Assembly: GCA_017427945.1 (NCBI GenBank)
Contig: JAFRRT010000012.1
Coordinates: 186,001-250,000, forward strand
Length of the DNA stretch: 64,000 nt
Direction: 5' to 3'
Origin: Muribaculaceae bacterium
Lineage (GTDB): Bacteria; Bacteroidota; Bacteroidia; Bacteroidales; Muribaculaceae
A program made the translations under genes and the position numbers. The notes beneath the pieces were generated by a model that worked only from the letters and a program-made list of their open reading frames with translations, was not told where the DNA came from and searched no databases. Shown one piece after another: positions 25,303 through 57,448 of this stretch (position 1 is the first letter of the stretch; every line of letters begins with the position of its first letter).

Positions 25303-26766
25303 ATGGAAAGATTAAAGAAATTATATGAGCAGCATGTGGGCAGCGAACCCACTGAGATTGTGCTCATGGATAAGGCCGGCTCCAACCGCCAGTATTACCG
25401 CCTGCTGGGCGAGCGCTCCCTGGTAGGCGTCATCGGTGAGTCACGCGAGGAGAATGATGCGTTCATCTACATAGCAAGGCACTTCCGCGAGCAAGGCCTG
25501 TCGGTGCCCGAGGTTTATGGCGTGAGCGATGACCACATGGCCTATATCCAGGAAGATTTGGGCAAAAAGCCCGAGAACATCCTCTGGAACAAAATCCGCC
25601 GCAGTTCCATCACACACGCTTTCACCAGCGAAGAGAAAGAACTGCTGCGCCGTGCCATGCGTGACCTGGTTGACATCCAGTTCCGCGGCTCTGTAGGGTT
25701 TGACTATGACAAATGTTATCCCGCAAAGTGCTTTGACGAGCGCTCCATCAAGTGGGATCTGAACTATTTCAAATACTGTTTCCTCAAGGCTACAGGCGTC
25801 ATCTTTAATGAGGACAAGCTGGAGAATGACTTTGAGAAACTGACCAAGGACCTGCTGGCCGTTCCCAGCAACACGTTCATGTATCGCGACTTCCAGTCAC
25901 GCAACGTGATGCTTGTAGGCGATGCCGACAAACCCGCCGAATGCAAGCTGGCATTTATCGACTTCCAGGGCGGTCGCCGCGGTCCGTACTACTATGACGT
26001 GGCCTCGTTTGTATGGCAATCCCGCGCCAAGTATCCCGATGAGCTAAAGAAAGACCTTGTCGAGGCCTACGTTGAGAAGCTTCAACAATACATTCCCGAC
26101 CTTGACAAGGAGGAATTCTACAAGAACCTGCGCCTGTTCGTGCTGTTCCGCACGTTGCAGGTGCTGGGAGCCTACGGTTTCAGGGGATATTTCGAGAAGA
26201 AGCCCGACTTCATGAAGAACAGCATTGTTCCCGCTGTTGCCAACCTGCGCAAACTGGTGATTAACAAGCCTTTCACCCAATATCCTTACCTTAGCCTCGT
26301 CATCGATGAGTTAGTGAACCTCAAGGACTTTGTCAGTGAAGACAAGGGATTGACTGTCAGGGTGATGAGCTTCGCTTTCAAGAAAGGCATCCCCCACGAT
26401 CCATCGGGCAATGGAGGCGGCTTTGTGTTTGACTGCCGTGCACTGAACAACCCCGGCAAGTATGACAAGTACAAAGCATTCACCGGTCTTGACAAGAACG
26501 TGATTGAATTCTTGCAGAAAGAGAGTACGATTGACAAGTGGCTGGAGCACGTCTATGCACTTGTCGATGAGTCGGTGGAGCGCTATGTGAAACGTAACTT
26601 CACCGACCTGATGGTGTGCTTCGGCTGTACGGGTGGCCAGCACCGCTCGGTCTATGCCGCAGAACACTTGGCAGAACACATCCACGACAAATTCAACGTG
26701 CGCGTGGAACTGTCACACCGTGAGCAGCCCGACCACGAGCGCACCCTTAATCCCATCGACCGATGA
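25303..26766 (+). CDS. AmgK-like sugar kinase fused to a RapZ C-terminal domain
   Basis: 487 residues. Residues about 1-340 are an aminoglycoside-phosphotransferase-like kinase with YRDFQSRN at 194-201 (catalytic D196) and FIDFQGGRRGPYYYDVASFV from about 218 (metal-binding D220). The DFQ-x-x-x-x-GP-x-x-YD wording resembles AmgK, the anomeric MurNAc/GlcNAc kinase. Residues about 347-480 match the C-terminal domain of RapZ, including the loop GCTGGQHRS at 441-449, which in E. coli RapZ lines the glucosamine-6-phosphate site. The RapZ kinase-like N-terminal ATPase domain is absent. The next gene overlaps by 4 nt and looks like MurU, AmgK's partner. Inferred role: salvage of cell-wall amino sugars with a built-in sugar sensor. 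The usual His of the Brenner motif is Tyr194. Confidence 0.85.
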   Translation: MERLKKLYEQHVGSEPTEIVLMDKAGSNRQYYRLLGERSLVGVIGESREENDAFIYIARHFREQGLSVPEVYGVSDDHMAYIQEDLGKKPENILWNKIRRSSITHAFTSEEKELLRRAMRDLVDIQFRGSVGFDYDKCYPAKCFDERSIKWDLNYFKYCFLKATGVIFNEDKLENDFEKLTKDLLAVPSNTFMYRDFQSRNVMLVGDADKPAECKLAFIDFQGGRRGPYYYDVASFVWQSRAKYPDELKKDLVEAYVEKLQQYIPDLDKEEFYKNLRLFVLFRTLQVLGAYGFRGYFEKKPDFMKNSIVPAVANLRKLVINKPFTQYPYLSLVIDELVNLKDFVSEDKGLTVRVMSFAFKKGIPHDPSGNGGGFVFDCRALNNPGKYDKYKAFTGLDKNVIEFLQKESTIDKWLEHVYALVDESVERYVKRNFTDLMVCFGCTGGQHRSVYAAEHLAEHIHDKFNVRVELSHREQPDHERTLNPIDR

Positions 26767-27521
26767 AAGCGTTGATTTTTGCGGCAGGCCTGGGCACACG
26801 CCTCAAGCCATTGACCGACGACCGTCCCAAGGCGATGGTCGAGATTGCCGGCAAGCCCATGCTGCAGTACGTCATTGAGCGTCTTGCAGCAGCAGGATTT
26901 GACGACATCACTATTAACATCCATCACTTTGGACAGACGATTATCGACTTCCTGGAAAATAACAATAACTTCGGGCTTAACATCCACATCAGCGATGAGC
27001 GCGGGCAGTTGCTCGACACCGGTGGCGGCATCCTCAAGGCGCGTCAGTGGCTTGACGGCGACGAGCCATTCCTGGTTCACAACACCGACATCATCAGCAC
27101 GCTTGACCTGAAGGCGTTCTATGACTATCATGTTGAGCACGACGCCCTGGCGACCATTCTCGTCAAAGAACGCAAAACGCAGCGATATTTACTGTTTGAC
27201 GAGAACGACCGCATGTGTGGATGGACCAACAAGGCAACGGGCGAATTCAAACCCGACCCCAAGAAACTGCAGGGACGCAACCTGCGGGAACTGGCATTTG
27301 GGGGATTGCACATCATTTCGCCGCGTATTTTCCCCGAGTTGGAGCGCTTTCACAGGAAAAACGGTGAGGACAAATTCTCCATCATACCGTTCTATATCGG
27401 CATGTGCACCCATCACCTCATCCACGGCTACCAGCCCAAGGAAGAATACCAGTGGCTCGACATCGGCAAACCCGAGACCCTTGCACAGGCCCAAGAGATT
27501 CTCTCTCCTAAAGCGGAGTAA
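26763..27521 (+). CDS. Sugar-1-phosphate nucleotidyltransferase, MurU-like
   Basis: 252 residues. N-terminal FAAGLGTRLKPLTDDRPKAM is the nucleotide-binding signature of sugar nucleotidyltransferases, and LLDTGGGILKA resembles the ETGGGI loop of MurU (MurNAc-1-phosphate uridylyltransferase). Its start ATG overlaps the stop of the kinase/RapZ-C gene (ATGA), so the two are made together. Together they would convert free MurNAc to UDP-MurNAc, by-passing MurA/MurB. Mannose- or glucose-1-phosphate specificity cannot be excluded without a tree. It lacks the C-terminal left-handed helix found in longer relatives. Confidence 0.85.
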   Translation: MKALIFAAGLGTRLKPLTDDRPKAMVEIAGKPMLQYVIERLAAAGFDDITINIHHFGQTIIDFLENNNNFGLNIHISDERGQLLDTGGGILKARQWLDGDEPFLVHNTDIISTLDLKAFYDYHVEHDALATILVKERKTQRYLLFDENDRMCGWTNKATGEFKPDPKKLQGRNLRELAFGGLHIISPRIFPELERFHRKNGEDKFSIIPFYIGMCTHHLIHGYQPKEEYQWLDIGKPETLAQAQEILSPKAE

Positions 27522-49732: not shown

Positions 49733-50698
49733 ATGGGCAATACCGTTAAAATAATTCGTCACCAAGATGTTGTCAATGCCGGCATATCTCCCAAACAGTG
49801 CATCGAATGGATTGAAGAATCATTTAAAATGAAGTACGAGGCATCTTTGCCGCCAAAAATCAGTATCCACCCACAAGGTGATGATTTCTTCAACACCATG
49901 CCCTGTCTATTGCCGGACCGATATGGCCGTTTCACGATGAAGGAGGTACATCGCATCGCAGGCCAAGAGCCAGCCCTTGGAAGCGACATTCTGGTCTATG
50001 ATTCCAAACGAGGTAATCTCTTGGCGATCATCGACGGCGACTGGATCACCAATATGAGGACTGGAGCGGTTGCTGCACTGTCTGCGAGAATGCTCAAGCC
50101 TTCGGAATGCAATGAGTACTCTTTTATTGGACTTGGCAACACAGCCCGCGCGACAGCACTGTGCATTCTTGAGGACAATCGTGATTGTAAATTATTGTTC
50201 AGACTACTGAAATACAAAAATCAAGCAGACCTGTTCAAGGAGCGCTTCAAAGACTATGACAATCTTGAAATAGAGATTGTCGACGATATTGAAACGATGG
50301 TCAAGAAGTCCCAGGTGCTCATTTCCTGTATCACTTCGGCCAATGGCATCCTGTGTCCTGACGACAGTCTATTCGGTCCTGGAATGTTGCTCATCCCTGT
50401 CCACACGCGCGGTTTCCAGAATTGCGACCTGTTTTTTGACAAAATATTCGGTGACGATACCGGTCATGTACAAGGTTTCAAGTATTTCTCACGCTTCAAG
50501 AAGTATGATGAACTGAGCCAAGTTCTGCTAGGTAATAACCCTGGTCGTGAGAATGACGCTGAGAGAATTATTTGTTACAACATCGGATTAGGACTCCACG
50601 ATGCGGTCTATGCCAGCCACATTTATGATATGCTCTCGGACAAGACAGATATCCCATTCTTCATCCAAGATAAGGAAACCTCAAAAATTTGGATTTAA
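49733..50698 (+). CDS. Ornithine cyclodeaminase / mu-crystallin family protein
   Basis: 321 residues. N-terminal ligand domain and central Rossmann fold with FIGLGNTARATALCILE (G-x-G-N-T-A in place of the usual G-x-G-x-Q-A), followed by DIETMVKKSQVLISCITSAN. LLAIIDGDWITNMRTGAVAALSAR is the characteristic OCD block. The family includes ornithine cyclodeaminase, alanine dehydrogenase, ketimine reductases and opine-type synthases. Lack of the usual Q in the loop and the sequence distance argue against assigning ornithine. Lower GC than neighbours. It converges on the glycan operon, separated by a bidirectional terminator. Confidence 0.8.
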   Translation: MGNTVKIIRHQDVVNAGISPKQCIEWIEESFKMKYEASLPPKISIHPQGDDFFNTMPCLLPDRYGRFTMKEVHRIAGQEPALGSDILVYDSKRGNLLAIIDGDWITNMRTGAVAALSARMLKPSECNEYSFIGLGNTARATALCILEDNRDCKLLFRLLKYKNQADLFKERFKDYDNLEIEIVDDIETMVKKSQVLISCITSANGILCPDDSLFGPGMLLIPVHTRGFQNCDLFFDKIFGDDTGHVQGFKYFSRFKKYDELSQVLLGNNPGRENDAERIICYNIGLGLHDAVYASHIYDMLSDKTDIPFFIQDKETSKIWI

Positions 50699-50782: not shown

Positions 50783-52606
50783 CTAACAAAGTGCTTGCAG
50801 CGCTTCGATAAGGCGGTCGTTGTCTTGCTGGTCACGGATGGCTATTCTGACGTAGTTCTGGCCTTCAAGTCCAGTTTTGTTATCACAATCCTTAATAAGA
50901 ATGTTATACTGATTCAGCATCCTTTCGGTCAGTTGCCGTGAGGTGAAGATATCCGTGACTTTACACAGGAAGTAATTGGCTTGTGAGGGAATCACCCGGA
51001 GATAAGGTATTGCTGACAAACGTTCGGCGAAACGGTTTCGTTCGTTAACAAATTTGCCACAGGCATTCTTGTAGAAGGACTCATACTTGTTGAAAATCTG
51101 CATATAGAACTCGGCAAACGAATTGATGTTCCAGATGGCCACATCTTTCTTCATCTTATCCAGCAGCGCTGTGTCGGCTCCTGCCAAAACGCCCAATCTG
51201 AGTCCAGGCACACCATAGGACTTGCTGATGCTCTTCATCACCAATAAACCAGGATTCGCCTCCAATATACTGTCATTCAGCAACGAATTTGCAGGTCCGG
51301 CATCAGAAAAGTCAACAAATGACTCATCGACAACTAGCTTGATTTCACGCTTGTCGCACCATTCGGCCAGAGATAAGACATCGTCTTTGGGAATGTAATT
51401 TCCTGAAGGGTTATCGGGATTAATCAGCAGCAGAGCCTTAATGTCCTTTGAACCATAAAATGCTTTTAGGTCATCAGTCGAATAGCGCAAATCAGGTTGA
51501 TCTGGATAATAAGGCACGATAGCGTCTTGTGGCAAGCGATGGGGATACTCTTCAAATGTCGGATAGACAATGCCCACTTTGCTGCCGCCCCCCACTAAAT
51601 GCTCCATCATGCTCTTAATTAGTTCGGCAGCTCCATTCCCAACGACCACATATTGACTGCTGATACCGAAATACTTGCCAGCCAACAGCGAATTCACGGC
51701 CATACCACTGGGATACTGCGTCAAGAGTTCGTCAAAATTGGCCCGAAGCTCATCACGCATCCTTTTTGGCGGGAAAAACGGATTCACCAGATAACAGAAA
51801 TCCAACATTTTCGGGAAACGCCAATAACCGCCGTACCTCACGTGGTACTTTTGCAGCTTGTCTTCCGCCGGGGAGAAGATGGCCTCGGCGATATCCTTAT
51901 CCTGTACGTCATCGATTTCATACCACGGCTTATCTCCGATAGGTAATGCTTTCAGATTAGCCTGGTCCAATAATGTGATTACACGCAGTACCTGCTCGTA
52001 GTACTCGTTGTTGCCCATCACCTTGCAATAGGCATCCAGGAACGGAACGTAAACTTTGGTCGAGAACTCCTGACTGAACTTGTAAACATTCACCGTTTTA
52101 AAATACGAATCGACCTCGGAGTATTTGAACGCCTTCTTTGGCACAAAGTTGACAATGTTGTTTTCCTTGTCGATGCGCACCATCGTACCATCCATCCAAG
52201 TCTCATATTTGGCAACTAGAGCCAAGTTAGGATACGGGTCATCAAGTATCATCTGGAAAAGGCTGTCATCAAGAATCAAATCACTCTCAATGAGAAGTGT
52301 GTCATCCTCAACCATTTTGTCTTTAACCAACGCCAATGAATAGATGTTGTTGGTTTTGTCATAGACAGGATTCTCGGTGAACTCGATGTGTAGCCTGTCT
52401 TCATAACGATCACCGATGTAATCCATCAATTCCTTACCCTTATATCCGACGACCATGACGAGGCGTGACAGTCCCAACCGGCACAGCTGTTCCAGCATCC
52501 TGTCAATCAAACGGACACCATTCACCTGCAACATACACTTGGTGTTGTCACGTGTATATTTACCCAGCCTGCGGCCCATACCAGCTGCCAAAATTATTGC
52601 TTGCAT
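50783..52606 (-). CDS. Nucleotidyltransferase fused to a HisC/CobD-like PLP enzyme
   Basis: 607 residues. Residues 1-235 are a LicC-like nucleotidyltransferase (LAAGMGRRLGKYTRDNTKCM; VYDKTNNIYSLALVKDKM). From about 245 to the end is a fold-type I PLP enzyme with NPDNPSGN, VVDESFVDF (D427) and SISKSYGVPGLRLG (Schiff-base K462). This wording matches HisC and CobD, not class V PhnW. Fused nucleotidyltransferase/aminotransferase proteins are known in phosphonate tailoring (PntC). A HisC-like domain could instead decarboxylate phosphoserine to phosphoethanolamine. It lies 26 nt after licD. Product proposed: CDP-ethanolamine or a CMP-phosphonate. Substrate is inference. Confidence 0.85.
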   Translation of the reverse strand: MQAIILAAGMGRRLGKYTRDNTKCMLQVNGVRLIDRMLEQLCRLGLSRLVMVVGYKGKELMDYIGDRYEDRLHIEFTENPVYDKTNNIYSLALVKDKMVEDDTLLIESDLILDDSLFQMILDDPYPNLALVAKYETWMDGTMVRIDKENNIVNFVPKKAFKYSEVDSYFKTVNVYKFSQEFSTKVYVPFLDAYCKVMGNNEYYEQVLRVITLLDQANLKALPIGDKPWYEIDDVQDKDIAEAIFSPAEDKLQKYHVRYGGYWRFPKMLDFCYLVNPFFPPKRMRDELRANFDELLTQYPSGMAVNSLLAGKYFGISSQYVVVGNGAAELIKSMMEHLVGGGSKVGIVYPTFEEYPHRLPQDAIVPYYPDQPDLRYSTDDLKAFYGSKDIKALLLINPDNPSGNYIPKDDVLSLAEWCDKREIKLVVDESFVDFSDAGPANSLLNDSILEANPGLLVMKSISKSYGVPGLRLGVLAGADTALLDKMKKDVAIWNINSFAEFYMQIFNKYESFYKNACGKFVNERNRFAERLSAIPYLRVIPSQANYFLCKVTDIFTSRQLTERMLNQYNILIKDCDNKTGLEGQNYVRIAIRDQQDNDRLIEALQALC

Positions 52607-52632
52607 ATTATAGTATTGTGTATGAAGATGAA

Positions 52633-53442
52633 TTAATCATAAAATTCAAGACGCTCGACATGGTGATAGACGTGGTCGAGATCATCAGGAAGTTGCATAT
52701 AGTCACCAAACATGACTTGAAGCATGTGATGGCTATTATCCGGGACTGGTAATTGTATGCCTTCAAAATCATGCGTTTTCAAAGGGAATATATCTTTAAT
52801 GTCATAGATATTGTGGAACGGAATTCCATAGTCACACATCAGAGACTTGGTACCACTCAGCTTGCTAATAAACCGCAAAAACGGAAAAGACACATGGCGA
52901 TTAATCCATGTTAATGCCCTGATCTTTCGCATTGCTGACTCATCACCATTGCCTGAACGATAAAAATTGTAGGCCAGGCTTTGCAAACGCAAGCGTTGTG
53001 TCCACGGAAGAATCATGTCGAGAGGGAAAATGTCAATATATACTCCCCGTTCCTTGAATACTTTGTCAAAATGAGCTTCTTCAAGAAGAGAGTTCTTATC
53101 CCTAAGCTTAGCTAAGAAAAAGAAATAATTCTTATCAGTTTTATTATTTTGAAAAGCGATATTGTCGGGTAATTCATTAGAAATGACCTTTGCCAAGCGC
53201 AAGTAATCACTACGCAACATTGCCACATCCAAATCATCATCCCATGGAATGAAGCCATTGTGTCTATATGCTCCCAACAAAGAACCTCCATAAAGGAAAT
53301 ATGGAATATCATATTTCTTGCAAATTCGATCCAGTTCTTTTACCATATCCAGCATGACCATCTGCTGACGGCGCAGGAGTGAACCCTCAGGATTGAATCG
53401 GGCTTTAAGCTCTTCAGGATTAAAAGAGGTAACCGTAGGCAT
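52633..53442 (-). CDS. LicD-family phosphotransferase
   Basis: 269 residues. The family core YGGSLLGAYRHNGFIPWDDD (residues 51-70) with WDDDLD at 67-72 is intact. LicD enzymes move phosphocholine, or in other systems ribitol-type or phosphonate groups, from a CDP/CMP donor to a surface glycan. No LicA kinase or LicB choline permease is present, so the donor is unlikely to come from imported choline. Adjacent nucleotidyltransferase fusion probably makes the donor. AT-richer than the flanking genes, suggesting separate acquisition. 18 nt from galE. Confidence 0.9.
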   Translation of the reverse strand: MPTVTSFNPEELKARFNPEGSLLRRQQMVMLDMVKELDRICKKYDIPYFLYGGSLLGAYRHNGFIPWDDDLDVAMLRSDYLRLAKVISNELPDNIAFQNNKTDKNYFFFLAKLRDKNSLLEEAHFDKVFKERGVYIDIFPLDMILPWTQRLRLQSLAYNFYRSGNGDESAMRKIRALTWINRHVSFPFLRFISKLSGTKSLMCDYGIPFHNIYDIKDIFPLKTHDFEGIQLPVPDNSHHMLQVMFGDYMQLPDDLDHVYHHVERLEFYD

Positions 53443-53459: not shown

Positions 53460-54494
53460 TTACATGATGCCGCGCTCACGGAGGCGTTTTTGCCAGTTCC
53501 ATGCGCTGAGCATGGTGTCGTCGAGGGAGATTTCGGCATGCCAGCCGAGGACCTCATTGGCGCGTTTGGGGTCGGCCCAAATCTGGACGATGTCACCAGG
53601 ACGACGAGGTGCAATCTTGTGGGGAACCTGTACACCAGTGGCGCGCTCAAACGAGTGGAGCAGCTCGAGGACCGAAGCACCGTTACCAGTACCGATATTA
53701 AAGATTTCGAGCGGTTCGTCGCTCTTGTCCTCCAGCATGCGCTCTAAGGCCTTAACATGGGCCTTGGCAAGATCTACAACGTTGATGAAGTCGCGGATGC
53801 AGGAGCCGTCACGTGTGGGATAGTCGTTGCCGAAGATGCTAAGTTCCTTACGCACACCGATGGCCGTCTGAGTCAAGAAAGGCACGAGATTCTGGGGCAC
53901 ACCGTTGGGCAGTTCGCCGATTTCGGCACTGGGATGAGCACCGATAGGATTGAAGTAACGCAACAAAATGGCCTTGATGGGACTGCCGCTGCGAATGACG
54001 TCGGCGATGATGTCCTCAGACACCTGCTTGGTGGCACCATATGGCGAAGTCGCCTTCTTGGTAGGAGCGTCCTCGGTAATCGGGTTCTTGTCGGGCTCGC
54101 CATAGACCGTGCAGGACGAGGAAAATACAAAGCCCTTCACGCCGAACTCGGGCATCAACTCCAGCAGGTTGAGCAGGATATTAAGATTGTTGCGGTAATA
54201 CATGATGGGCTTCTCGATGCTTTCGCCCACCGCTTTGCTGGCCGCAAAGTTGATGATGCCGCTAATGCCGGGATTGTCCTCGAAGAGCTTTCGAACCACG
54301 GCGCGGTCGGTGCAATCGCCCTCGACAAAAACGGGGCGGATGCCAGTGATGCGCTCAATGCCATCCAGCACCTCGACGTTGCTGTTGCTCAGATTATCGA
54401 TGATAACCACATCGTAACCAGCCTGTTGCAACTCTACAGTAGTGTGCGAACCGATGAAGCCGGTTCCGCCAGTAACTAAGATTTTACCTTTCAT
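53460..54494 (-). CDS. galE: UDP-glucose 4-epimerase
   Basis: 344 residues, short-chain dehydrogenase/reductase fold. NAD motif VTGGTGFIGSHTTVEL, catalytic Ser in SSSCTVYGEP and YGATKQVSE (Tyr-x-x-x-Lys). RYFNPIGAHPSAEIGE and NPITEDAPTKKATSPYGATK are family blocks. It interconverts UDP-Glc/UDP-Gal (or the N-acetyl forms) for the glycan operon, 20 nt after the flippase gene. Confidence 0.95.
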   Translation of the reverse strand: MKGKILVTGGTGFIGSHTTVELQQAGYDVVIIDNLSNSNVEVLDGIERITGIRPVFVEGDCTDRAVVRKLFEDNPGISGIINFAASKAVGESIEKPIMYYRNNLNILLNLLELMPEFGVKGFVFSSSCTVYGEPDKNPITEDAPTKKATSPYGATKQVSEDIIADVIRSGSPIKAILLRYFNPIGAHPSAEIGELPNGVPQNLVPFLTQTAIGVRKELSIFGNDYPTRDGSCIRDFINVVDLAKAHVKALERMLEDKSDEPLEIFNIGTGNGASVLELLHSFERATGVQVPHKIAPRRPGDIVQIWADPKRANEVLGWHAEISLDDTMLSAWNWQKRLRERGIM

Positions 54495-54514: not shown

Positions 54515-55972
54515 TTATTTTGTTTTCCTTGAACGAATAAATTCCACACATTCCTCAAATATCTTTGCCTTCAGCAACTTCATCACCCCGGCATATAATG
54601 CCACGGCAATCAGCACCCTCATGACAAGCAAGAGGTAGTAGTTTTTAATGGGCATGGTGACCAGATAAGTCACAGCCATCACCGCCGCCGCTATCAGCAT
54701 GAAGGGCAACAGGTCACGCAGCATGGTCCAATAACTGTAGCCGATGAGACGTTGAGCAAACAGCTGCCACACCAGCAGCCAAAGGATATTGATTACGGCA
54801 AAGACAATGACCATCGCTGTGATGCCCAATGAATGACAAGCGAGCACTGCAGTAATCACCAGAGCGATTTGAGCCAGTGTGAGCCACATATAGATATCGG
54901 ATTTCCCCAAACTCAGGAACAGATTCTGATAAACCGCATACAACGGCACAAAAGCACCGCTGATACACAGAATCTGCAACAACGGAATGCTGTTCGCCCA
55001 CCTGTCGGTGATGGCGAGAATAATAAATTCATGTGCCACCAGAGCCAAGCCGAACATTACCGGGAACGAGAGGAAAGCCGTGAAACGCATCATCTTGCCA
55101 AAGACGCGGCGACGGCGCTCACGGTCATCATTGACCTGCACGAGGACGGGCTGTACCATCTGCGATACCGTGCTCGTCACCAGCGAGTTGGCCATCGTGT
55201 TCCACTTGTTGGCCTGTGAGTAGTTGCCCACCGATGCCGATGGGAACAAGCGGCCGAAAATCACTGTCAGCACGTTATTGCTCACAGTGCCGATAATGGC
55301 GGTAATCAGGACCTTATAGCTAAAGGAGAACATACGTTTCACCGGCTCGAAAGTGATGTGCAACGACGGCCACCAATGGGCGAAATAATAACGTCCAAAG
55401 CAGATGACAACGCTATACAGCACCTGCTGCGTCGCAAGGCTCCAATAGGAATAGCCCTTGTAAGCCATTATCACGCCGACCGTACCCGAAACCACAAGTG
55501 CGGTCAACGAGATGATGGCTTTCTCCTTCATCTTCAAGGCACGTACAAGTTTAGCATTGGGAGAAATGCCCACAGCCGAGAAAAAGAAGGAGATGAAGAT
55601 AAAGCGCGACAAGCTTGTCAGGCATGGCTGATGGTAAAATTTGGCAATCAACGGGGCACAAAAGAACAATACCGTGTAAAGTATCACACTCATGATGACA
55701 TTGAACCAGAAGACCGAGTTATAATCCTCGTGCTTAATGTCCTTGACATTGATGAGTGCAACACCAAAACCGCTGTCCTGCAGGTTGCCGGCGATGAGTG
55801 TGAAGATGGCGAGCATGGCCACGATGCCGTATTCGGCAGGCGAAAGCAGGCGCGCCAGGAAGATGCCGATAATCAGGTTGAGCAGTTGCATGCCGCCACT
55901 GCTCAGGATACCCCAAAAGAGTCCCTGGGCGGTCTTCTGCTTCAAACTCTGGTTATCGAACTGTTCACTCAT
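54515..55972 (-). CDS. Oligosaccharide flippase (MOP / Wzx-like)
   Basis: 485 residues with 12-14 predicted membrane helices, moving lipid-linked glycan units across the inner membrane. N-terminal QGLFWGILSSGGMQLLNLII and LARLLSPAEYGIVAMLAIFT resemble the lipopolysaccharide biosynthesis (WzxC-type) branch of the MOP superfamily. Starts inside the stop of the HAD gene (4-nt overlap), so it is translationally coupled to it. Confidence 0.92.
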   Translation of the reverse strand: MSEQFDNQSLKQKTAQGLFWGILSSGGMQLLNLIIGIFLARLLSPAEYGIVAMLAIFTLIAGNLQDSGFGVALINVKDIKHEDYNSVFWFNVIMSVILYTVLFFCAPLIAKFYHQPCLTSLSRFIFISFFFSAVGISPNAKLVRALKMKEKAIISLTALVVSGTVGVIMAYKGYSYWSLATQQVLYSVVICFGRYYFAHWWPSLHITFEPVKRMFSFSYKVLITAIIGTVSNNVLTVIFGRLFPSASVGNYSQANKWNTMANSLVTSTVSQMVQPVLVQVNDDRERRRRVFGKMMRFTAFLSFPVMFGLALVAHEFIILAITDRWANSIPLLQILCISGAFVPLYAVYQNLFLSLGKSDIYMWLTLAQIALVITAVLACHSLGITAMVIVFAVINILWLLVWQLFAQRLIGYSYWTMLRDLLPFMLIAAAVMAVTYLVTMPIKNYYLLLVMRVLIAVALYAGVMKLLKAKIFEECVEFIRSRKTK

Positions 55973-56499
55973 TGGTTGCCTAATATCTGGTCAATCCACT
56001 CGCGCACACAGGCATCGCCGCCGCGTCGCTCAAGAATGTGTATTCCTGGAATCCCTTTAACCTTGTCACAAGCATCGGCAGGACAAGCTGCCCACTTCAC
56101 TGCCGCAAGCAGATCATAGCAGTTCACATCGTCGCCCACATAGGCCACCTCCTGCAAGGTTATGCCCATCTCGTCACAGATTTCGTTTACGGCAGCCAGT
56201 TTGCCGCCATCACGGGCACTCTGCTTGAGGAAGTCGAGCCCGAGCTTGCGGGCACGGTTCACGTTAATGGGAGTGTTCTCGCTGGTGACAATGCCCACCT
56301 TAACGCCAGTGCGCTGCAACATCTGCAAGCCCATGCCGTCACGGGTGTTGAACTTCTTGAACTCGGTGCCGTCAGAGCCATAATACATGCCGCCGTCGGT
56401 GAGTGTGCCGTCAACGTCGGTCAGGAAGAGACGGATGTCACTGACGCGCGGAATCTCGCCGTTGGCATTGCCGGTTTTCGTAGCGTGGTTTTCTTCCAT
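55969..56499 (-). CDS. KdsC-like HAD phosphatase
   Basis: 176 residues. HAD motif I LFLTDVDGTLTDGGMYY, motif II VTSENT (S/T), Lys in RDGGKLAAV, motif III/IV VGDDVNCYDLL. The short TDVDGTLTDG form without a cap domain is typical of Kdo-8-phosphate phosphatase and of the phosphatases for related nonulosonic or sugar phosphates. The neighbours favour a role in donor sugar synthesis for the surface glycan; Kdo itself is possible. Overlaps the flippase gene by 4 nt. Confidence 0.85.
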   Translation of the reverse strand: MEENHATKTGNANGEIPRVSDIRLFLTDVDGTLTDGGMYYGSDGTEFKKFNTRDGMGLQMLQRTGVKVGIVTSENTPINVNRARKLGLDFLKQSARDGGKLAAVNEICDEMGITLQEVAYVGDDVNCYDLLAAVKWAACPADACDKVKGIPGIHILERRGGDACVREWIDQILGNQ

Positions 56500-56500
56500 A

Positions 56501-57448
56501 TCATTTCAGGTATTGTTCGATGTGATAACGCGGGCGGTGTTTACTCTCGGTGTAGATGCGCCCGATGTAAGCGGCTATGACACTCAAGCACACCAGCAGG
56601 CATCCGCCGACAAACCAGATGGAGAGCATCAACGAAGCCCAACCCTGAACGCCGCGTCCCTGGCACAACGCCATGATAACATAGACCAGGATACCAAAGC
56701 TGATGAGCAAGAACAGCACGCCTAGAAAGAATATCAGTCGCAAGGGCCTGACGCTGAACGAGGTAATGCCATCTATCGCAAAAGAGAGCATCTTGCTCAT
56801 CGGATACTTGCTCTCACCCGCCTTGCGTTCCAAACGGTCATAATAAACCGAGTCGGACTTATAGCCCATCAGCGGCACCAGGCCGCGCAGGAACAAATTG
56901 CGCTCCTCATACATGCACAAGGTATCGACAGCACGACGGCTCATCAGCCTGCAATCGGCATGGTTATAGACCGACTTCACGCCCATGCGTGCCATAAACT
57001 TATAGAATCCCTGAGCGGTATATCGTTTAAAGAACGAGTCTGCCTTGCGGTCGCGCCGCACACCATAGACCACATCATTGCCTGCATCAAATTTCTTGAC
57101 CATCTCGGGGATGACGTTGATATCATCTTGCAAATCGGCGTCGATCGACACGGTCACGTCGGCATCGGCACGGGCTGTGTCAAGCCCTGCCATGAGGGCA
57201 TTCTGGTGTCCAACGTTGCCCACCAGCTTGAGACCACGCACATGGGTGTCGCCCGCAGCATAACCCGCTATGAGTTCCCATGTCTGGTCAGCTGAGCCAT
57301 CATCTACATAAAGGATATAACTCCCCTCGGCCACCAGATTGTCACGCATCATGCCATCGAGCAATGCCCTCAACCGCTCATTGGTCTGCGGCAGGACCTC
57401 CTGCTCGTTATAACAAGGCACGACAATCGAAAGAATCGAATTTTTCAT
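56501..57448 (-). CDS. Family 2 glycosyltransferase, GtrB/ArnC type
   Basis: 315 residues. Catalytic domain with VPCYNEQEVLPQTNERLRAL, DDGSADQT and SIDADLQDD (the D-x-D region), followed by two membrane helices (LIFFLGVLFLLISFGILVYV; LSIWFVGGCLLVCLSVIAAY). This layout is that of polyprenyl-phosphate glycosyltransferases (GtrB, ArnC, Dpm1-like), which make undecaprenyl-phosphate-linked sugars for transfer outside. It is the first gene of a six-gene minus-strand operon running to 50783. Confidence 0.93.
   Translation of the reverse strand: MKNSILSIVVPCYNEQEVLPQTNERLRALLDGMMRDNLVAEGSYILYVDDGSADQTWELIAGYAAGDTHVRGLKLVGNVGHQNALMAGLDTARADADVTVSIDADLQDDINVIPEMVKKFDAGNDVVYGVRRDRKADSFFKRYTAQGFYKFMARMGVKSVYNHADCRLMSRRAVDTLCMYEERNLFLRGLVPLMGYKSDSVYYDRLERKAGESKYPMSKMLSFAIDGITSFSVRPLRLIFFLGVLFLLISFGILVYVIMALCQGRGVQGWASLMLSIWFVGGCLLVCLSVIAAYIGRIYTESKHRPRYHIEQYLK

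Follow-up and report, generated by a model that had tools for sequence, protein, structure and literature searches.

The nearest published layout to the gene considered here is PntC-AEPT of Treponema denticola (structures 6pd1 and 6pd2), which, according to the available text of PMC6697681, joins an N-terminal LicC-like cytidylyltransferase to a pyridoxal phosphate (PLP) enzyme, serves a phospho-amino decoration of the cell surface, and has a conserved Glu. In the Lic1 system (LicA-LicB-LicC-LicD), a phospho-alcohol is activated with cytidine diphosphate (CDP) and transferred by LicD. The Campylobacter capsule pathway of Cj1436 and Cj1437 decarboxylates serine phosphate, and the resulting ethanolamine phosphate goes into a surface glycan; in the accessible part of PMC12409886, the amine is then amidated to glucuronic acid, with no opine step. 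Features of all three recur in a module found in a 64,000-nucleotide stretch (the window) of Muribaculaceae bacterium assembly GCA_017427945.1 (contig JAFRRT010000012.1, positions 186,001 to 250,000). The module consists of licD (window positions 52633-53442, minus strand), a single gene that fuses a nucleotidyltransferase to a PLP decarboxylase-like enzyme (50783-52606, minus strand; referred to as the fusion), and a gene for an NAD(P)-dependent reductase of the OCD/mu-crystallin family (49733-50698, plus strand). It is best classed with the CDP-activated phospho-alcohol decoration systems and not placed in the PntC, HisC, or CobD families. On balance, it probably makes a CDP-activated N-carboxyalkyl ethanolamine phosphate, i.e., an opine, and LicD puts the resulting phospho-opine on a glycan.

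Both licD and the fusion are intact open reading frames (ORFs), with licD located 26 bp upstream, and their Pfam domains confirm the first-pass annotation, which had reported licD beside one 607-residue nucleotidyltransferase-PLP gene. The 269-residue LicD-family phosphotransferase scores 142.7 bits against PF04991 (cut-off 22.6). The fusion protein contains an NTP_transf_3 domain (residues 3 to 123; 40.6 bits, cut-off 27) and an Aminotran_1_2 domain (residues 303 to 603; 113.4 bits, cut-off 19.7), and its AlphaFold2 model has a mean pLDDT of 82.5 and a pTM of 0.74. With an approximate boundary, the N-terminal domain covers residues 1 to 245 (51872-52606, minus strand) and the C-terminal domain, a fold-type-I PLP enzyme, covers residues 246 to 607 (50786-51871, minus strand). 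Residue conservation was judged from an alignment of the window fusion with 35 chosen relatives, which also served for the structure model. Invariant residues include Gly9, Gly11, Glu107, and Asp109 in the nucleotidyltransferase and Asn396, Asp427, Lys462, and Arg470 in the PLP domain. The motifs noticed earlier were read correctly: VVDESF occupies residues 425 to 430, and the SISKSYG motif holds Lys462, the presumed PLP-binding lysine (codon 51221-51223, minus strand), which, like Asp427-Glu428-Ser429-Phe430, is invariant in 36 of the 36 aligned sequences.

By its sequence, the N-terminal domain is classified as a LicC/PntC-like cytidylyltransferase: it matches 1jyk (54.9 bits) and 6pd1 (44.2 bits) over its first 118 to 152 residues. 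Its Glu107 sits where LicC has Asp and aligns with Glu104 of PntC, a residue positioned for interaction with the amine of 2-aminoethylphosphonate (AEP) in the available text of PMC6697681. This Glu, together with an overall layout for which the T. denticola PntC-AEPT is the best Foldseek match by E-value, would suit a PntC-type phosphonate system that activates AEP. However, the TM-scores of that match are only about 0.35, so its ranking was weighted below the domain match. The sequence match to 6pd1 is confined to fusion residues 2 to 153, and the C-terminal domain belongs to class I/II and not, like the AEP transaminase, to class V. In addition, the genome of the window (96.3% complete, in 39 contigs) gives no match to phosphoenolpyruvate (PEP) mutase at E<=1e-3, in agreement with the earlier remark that this enzyme is lacking nearby. 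Of 297 family genomes, 10 have a PEP mutase: 2 of the 74 that carry the fusion (G159 and G186) and 8 of the 223 that do not. Given the class I/II PLP domain and no PEP mutase match, a phosphonate pathway was rejected as the principal explanation and is regarded as highly improbable.

The PLP domain looks most like the decarboxylase-like CobD/SMUL_1544 type, is less like HisC, and is not a class V AEP transaminase. Of all families, TIGR01140 (CobD) gives the best score, 201.7 bits, even though this is below the cut-off of 290.55; TIGR01141 (HisC) reaches 147.9 bits, below its cut-off of 276.55, so that the CobD model outscores the HisC one by 54 bits. The closest relatives by both sequence and structure are CobD (1lc5) and SMUL_1544 (6oux), and the diagnostic active-site residues side with the decarboxylases and not with HisC, the HisC side of this comparison being represented by 8 of 13 sequences, as the other 5 were unusable. 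Fold and active-site residues are accordingly those of CobD as against HisC. The first-pass annotation had ascribed HisC/CobD-type motifs to this enzyme; comparison of sequences and structures upholds the CobD half of that description, with SMUL_1544 beside it, and weakens the HisC half. The same evidence bears on the idea that the domain is a transaminase with another product, for instance serinol phosphate, the aminoalcohol phosphate made by Cj1437, and that the reductase then makes its opine. The 54-bit difference and the decarboxylase-like residues both speak against such a transaminase, which appears quite unlikely.

Neither hisD nor cbiB has a match in the genome of the window, whereas serC is present above its cut-off. 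With 96.3% completeness in 39 contigs, these absences are strong, not absolute, and together with the lack of a PEP mutase match they make histidine, cobamide, and phosphonate pathways unlikely. The family resemblance of the PLP domain to both HisC and CobD might indicate an ordinary primary-metabolism enzyme to which an unrelated domain has become joined. That explanation is hardly credible, as the domain falls below both curated cut-offs, the gene adjoins glycan genes, and its distribution is patchy. HisC of primary metabolism was rejected on the missing hisD match and the TIGR01141 score, and CobD of primary metabolism on the missing cbiB match and the TIGR01140 score. Unlike CobD and SMUL_1544, the PLP domain is joined to a nucleotidyltransferase and encoded beside glycan genes in a genome with no cbiB match.

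The third component is the reductase. The first-pass annotation was right about the two genes that it described but overlooked the OCD-family gene at 49733-50698, which belongs to the system. This gene (321 residues; PF02423 87.6 bits, cut-off 24) is convergent with the fusion, with 84 bp between its end and the fusion stop codon. Relatives of the fusion turned up in 310 stretches of public genome contigs; the best 80 were kept, with at most 8 kb per side, and the 80 fusion loci discussed below are 79 of these plus the window, since L094 gave no fusion ORF. Clustering of the neighbors shows that the gene after the fusion most often belongs to the octopine dehydrogenase family (PF02317; 330 to 360 residues) and otherwise encodes an OCD-family protein like that of the window. 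Profile searches place a separate octopine dehydrogenase within 2.5 kb in 45 of the 80 loci and find it fused to the C terminus of the fusion protein in 8 more (943 to 953 residues). OCD is found in 19 of 80 loci, the window included, both reductases in 2, and none in 6. In total, 74 of the 80 loci have a reductase within 2.5 kb or inside the fusion gene, and 36 of the 59 reductase genes that follow the fusion directly and in the same orientation share a 4-bp overlap with it. Octopine dehydrogenase is also fused to LicD in two loci (L078 and L090). That the reductase occurs in fusions with each of the other two parts is the best indication of a role in making the LicD donor. The octopine dehydrogenase of L066 scores 100.7 bits against PF02317 (cut-off 30) and is a full-length homologue of 3c7a (E 1.8e-32); the Asn-Pro-x-x-His motif is kept in at least 95% of 45 such proteins.

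The family genomes show the same association. Window-type OCD (E<=1e-30) is found in 39 of the 297 genomes, all 39 of which carry the fusion, and in none of the 223 without it; octopine dehydrogenase is encoded in 40 of the 74 fusion genomes versus 12 of the 223 others. At least one reductase is present in 72 of the 74, the exceptions being G055 and G182. The first-pass annotation had presented the gene pair as possibly self-contained, a description that these counts do not support. The two reductases mostly replace each other, and OCD in the window takes the place held by octopine dehydrogenase in relatives: 32 fusion genomes have OCD only, 33 have octopine dehydrogenase only, 7 have both, and 2 have neither (Fisher p 7e-12, relatedness ignored). 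Of 82 fusion places in these genomes, 80 were scored for adjacency (within 1.5 kb), two short N-terminal fragments being left out; OCD adjoins 35, octopine dehydrogenase 26, both 1, and neither 18, and for 16 of these 18 a reductase is encoded elsewhere in the genome. Places that contain stop codons, 7 of 42 for OCD and that of the fusion in G173, were counted as matches.

Reductase type changes at least 14 times on the fusion tree, a count that holds for a quick tree of 79 rows with 22 of 76 inner branches open, without L076 (ORF shorter than 560 residues), and with states taken only from loci that have one reductase kind. The nearest kin of the window include both triple fusions (L043 to L047, L050, L052, and L054) and, like the window itself, loci with a convergent OCD gene (L048, L049, L051, L053, and L069). 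Interchange of two unrelated NAD(P)H enzymes at one place suggests that they catalyze one type of reaction. Octopine dehydrogenases reductively couple an amine to a 2-oxo acid, and SbnB, an OCD-family enzyme, handles an opine-like compound. Members of the OCD family have many activities, and this latitude would allow the reductases to be oxidative or to make an amino or oxo acid used elsewhere, as an OCD protein similar to alanine dehydrogenase or SbnB might, so that the exchange reflected a looser shared role. Consistent with this, the window OCD matches several NCBIfam models, all far below their cut-offs, and its best match among solved structures is pyrroline-2-carboxylate reductase (57.6 bits). 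The fused architectures and the tight mutual exclusion with a full-length octopine dehydrogenase homologue argue the other way, and a looser role is considered very unlikely.

The opine proposal can be laid out as follows; what we observe are the domain identities, the gene fusions, the gene order, the co-occurrence, the exchange of the two reductases, and the lack of matches to marker genes of rival pathways, while the substrates, the order of coupling and activation, and the acceptor are what we infer. Decarboxylation by the PLP domain would turn a phospho-amino acid into an aminoalcohol phosphate; the likeliest substrate is O-phospho-L-serine, supplied by SerC, and the likeliest product ethanolamine phosphate. 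The NAD(P)H reductase next to or fused with this enzyme, octopine dehydrogenase in most relatives and OCD in the window, would join the amine to a 2-oxo acid, with pyruvate as the likeliest one, and so form an opine such as N-(1-carboxyethyl)ethanolamine phosphate. The N-terminal domain would use CTP to convert the opine phosphate, or its precursor, to a CDP conjugate, and the coupling may alternatively come after CDP activation. LicD, or in some relatives a CDP-glycerol-type phosphotransferase, would then move the phospho-opine onto a sugar of a lipid-linked glycan that is flipped by the neighboring Wzx. The reductase partners share families with octopine dehydrogenase (3c7a) and OCD/mu-crystallin, but the proposed amine substrate is a phospho-aminoalcohol, whereas that of octopine dehydrogenase is arginine or another amino acid. 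Unlike PntC-AEPT, the fusion combines a CobD-like class I/II PLP domain with a reductase partner and has no PEP mutase match in its genome; unlike Lic1, the module probably obtains its amine from the PLP domain and not from imported choline, has Glu in place of the LicC Asp, and adds a reductase. LicA and LicB are not among the seven window proteins that were profiled, and no genome-wide search was aimed at them.

The first-pass annotation had proposed a shorter route, from phosphoserine to phosphoethanolamine, then to CDP-ethanolamine, and on to LicD. Its early steps fit the CobD-like domain, the presence of serC, the adjacent LicD, and the lack of PEP mutase, hisD, and cbiB matches, all of which are matters of homology and gene context; its end product is the part that fits poorly. 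Plain phosphoethanolamine as the general decoration would mean that the reductase acts elsewhere in the glycan. The fusion and LicD are indeed found with no reductase in the available DNA of L087, L097, L105, and the distant L136, and for these few loci plain phosphoethanolamine is likely. In L136 (31% identity), the fusion overlaps a LicD-like gene (PF04991, 50.1 bits) and no reductase is seen in the 4.7 kb available, which suggests a core of fusion and LicD to which the reductase was later added or from which it was lost. Of the six reductase-less loci, L071 retains an octopine dehydrogenase whose frame is broken, L086 runs into a contig edge, and the other four (L087, L097, L105, and L112) show no reductase in the flanking DNA available. 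As a general explanation, plain phosphoethanolamine is unlikely: a reductase accompanies the fusion in 74 of 80 loci and 72 of 74 genomes, which favors an N-carboxyalkylated derivative as the group transferred, and the fusion of octopine dehydrogenase to the fusion gene (8 loci) or to LicD (2 loci) places it in the same donor pathway.

The proposed product of the module is known from an enterobacterial glycan. In a review of Klebsiella and Proteus surface glycans (PMC9630907), R-Cet-EtnP, N-[(R)-1-carboxyethyl]ethanolamine phosphate, is named in the legend to a figure that shows structures of K. pneumoniae capsule and P. mirabilis O-polysaccharide. In Bacteroidales, its presence is a prediction that follows from the opine proposal; the P. 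mirabilis carrier is serotype O14. The consulted text of a paper on Proteus O-antigen genes mentions none of ethanolamine, licD, carboxyethyl, octopine, or opine and names no genes for carboxyethyl-EtnP, and that of a phosphocholine gene survey contains none of the words fusion, Bacteroid, or Prevotella. As far as titles and the openings of abstracts go, the open-licence literature searched contains no description of the fusion, reductase, and LicD together and no pathway to a carboxyalkyl-phosphoethanolamine decoration. The module, if it works as proposed, would be a genetic route to this decoration, and a CDP-opine would join the known activated donors. What could pass for a LicC/HisC-like oddity, carried by 74 of 297 genomes of one family, would become a checkable prediction: with pyruvate as the oxo acid, the predicted substituent adds 195.03 Da (+195.03 Da), expected in the cultured carriers Hoylesella buccalis ATCC 35310 (L077) and H. 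timonensis (L075 and L082), and attachment to HexNAc would give an oxonium ion near m/z 399.116. Many gut and rumen Bacteroidales carry the fusion, and in them the proposed chemistry would amount to a new way of making a rare sugar decoration. A broader and quite tentative suggestion is that Bacteroidales make CDP-[N-(1-carboxyalkyl)ethanolamine] as a cap for either the general protein O-glycan or some other surface glycan. Repeated swapping of the two unrelated reductases at one position might then give caps that differ in stereochemistry or 2-oxo acid, so that close strains could vary cap charge and antigenicity by gene replacement.

The fusion is found in 11 of the 30 genera sampled within the family, a spread that, with 74 of 297 genomes, makes a chance fusion untenable. 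Nearly all of the best 80 of 310 relatives match over their full length; by record taxon, they comprise 37 Prevotellaceae, 16 Bacteroidaceae, 7 Muribaculaceae, 1 each of Salinivirgaceae and Paludibacteraceae, 17 Bacteroidota with no family name, and 1 Verrucomicrobiota. A contig titled Verrucomicrobia bacterium SIG76 (L119) carries the fusion, both reductases, and LicD, either by transfer or through a binning error. In a phylum-wide sample, the fusion occurs in 2 of 395 genomes at E<=1e-60, one of them that of the window, so beyond the relatives of the window it looks rare in that sample.

The transferase and the acceptor vary more. LicD is encoded in 59 of the 80 loci, and a Glyphos_transf-type gene, i.e., a CDP-glycerol-type phosphotransferase, in 8, of which 5 lack LicD (the L111 member scores 28.4 bits, cut-off 22.1). 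The available DNA of 16 loci has neither; some of these are cut short, and two have partial LicD matches. The flippase of the window cluster is found in 45 of the 80 loci. It is nearest to the O-glycosylation flippase family NF058658, scoring 659 bits in the window and 608 to 687 bits in three relatives, below the cut-off of 720. In 14 of the 80 loci, the gene immediately upstream of the fusion is metG, an identification made on the L111 member; no metG is found beside the gene run of the window, and in the available DNA of 27 loci both this flippase and an upstream metG are missing. According to the accessible text of PMC12871550, the LFG locus, which serves general protein O-glycosylation in Bacteroidota, begins with metG followed by wzx; part of the fusion loci resemble it in having an upstream metG or a flippase of this cluster. 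The acceptor in many relatives is probably the general protein O-glycan. Phosphate-linked substituents occur on O-glycans of this kind, going by the available parts of the reports, as glycerol phosphate in Porphyromonas gingivalis (PMC8729774) and as a phosphate-linked C6H12O5 in Prevotella intermedia (PMC10897501); these are glycerol and a sugar alcohol, not an aminoalcohol. The gene order in L111 is metG, fusion, octopine dehydrogenase, phosphotransferase, Wzx, and acyltransferase, the last being an Acyl_transf_3 gene (L111:13543-14559) that possibly acylates the same glycan.

In the window, the fusion ends a run of six genes on the minus strand, with gaps of -4 to 26 bp: GT2, HAD phosphatase, Wzx, GalE, LicD, and the fusion. 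The run is headed by a PgfS/ArnC-like GT2 glycosyltransferase (56501-57448). Next come the HAD phosphatase (55969-56499), similar to KDN-9-phosphatase and KdsC (NF058599 155.9 bits, cut-off 180), and the Wzx-type flippase (54515-55972), for which the next family after NF058658 scores 202 bits. The UDP-glucose 4-epimerase GalE (53460-54494; TIGR01179 397.9 bits, cut-off 262.3) precedes licD. The phosphatase may point to a phosphorylated sugar intermediate, of the nonulosonic or another type. Elsewhere in the window (26763-26993, plus strand), a second nucleotidyltransferase-like stretch, in a 256-residue frame, is weakly similar to the fusion (27% identity over its first 77 residues, E 6e-6).

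Octopine dehydrogenase-like proteins are also encoded apart from the fusion. In four family genomes without it (G212, G002, G013, and G135; L127 to L130), there are strong matches of 137 to 145 bits. A second, longer protein of this kind, encoded in a separate gene group, occurs in L060 (2311-3513; 400 residues, 80.0 bits) and, as assigned by clustering, in L057 (14226-15428), and possibly serves another opine-containing glycan. In L060 its gene lies about 4.5 kb from the fusion, and its neighbors are AMP-ligase-like, GH88-like, and WecG-type glycosyltransferase genes.

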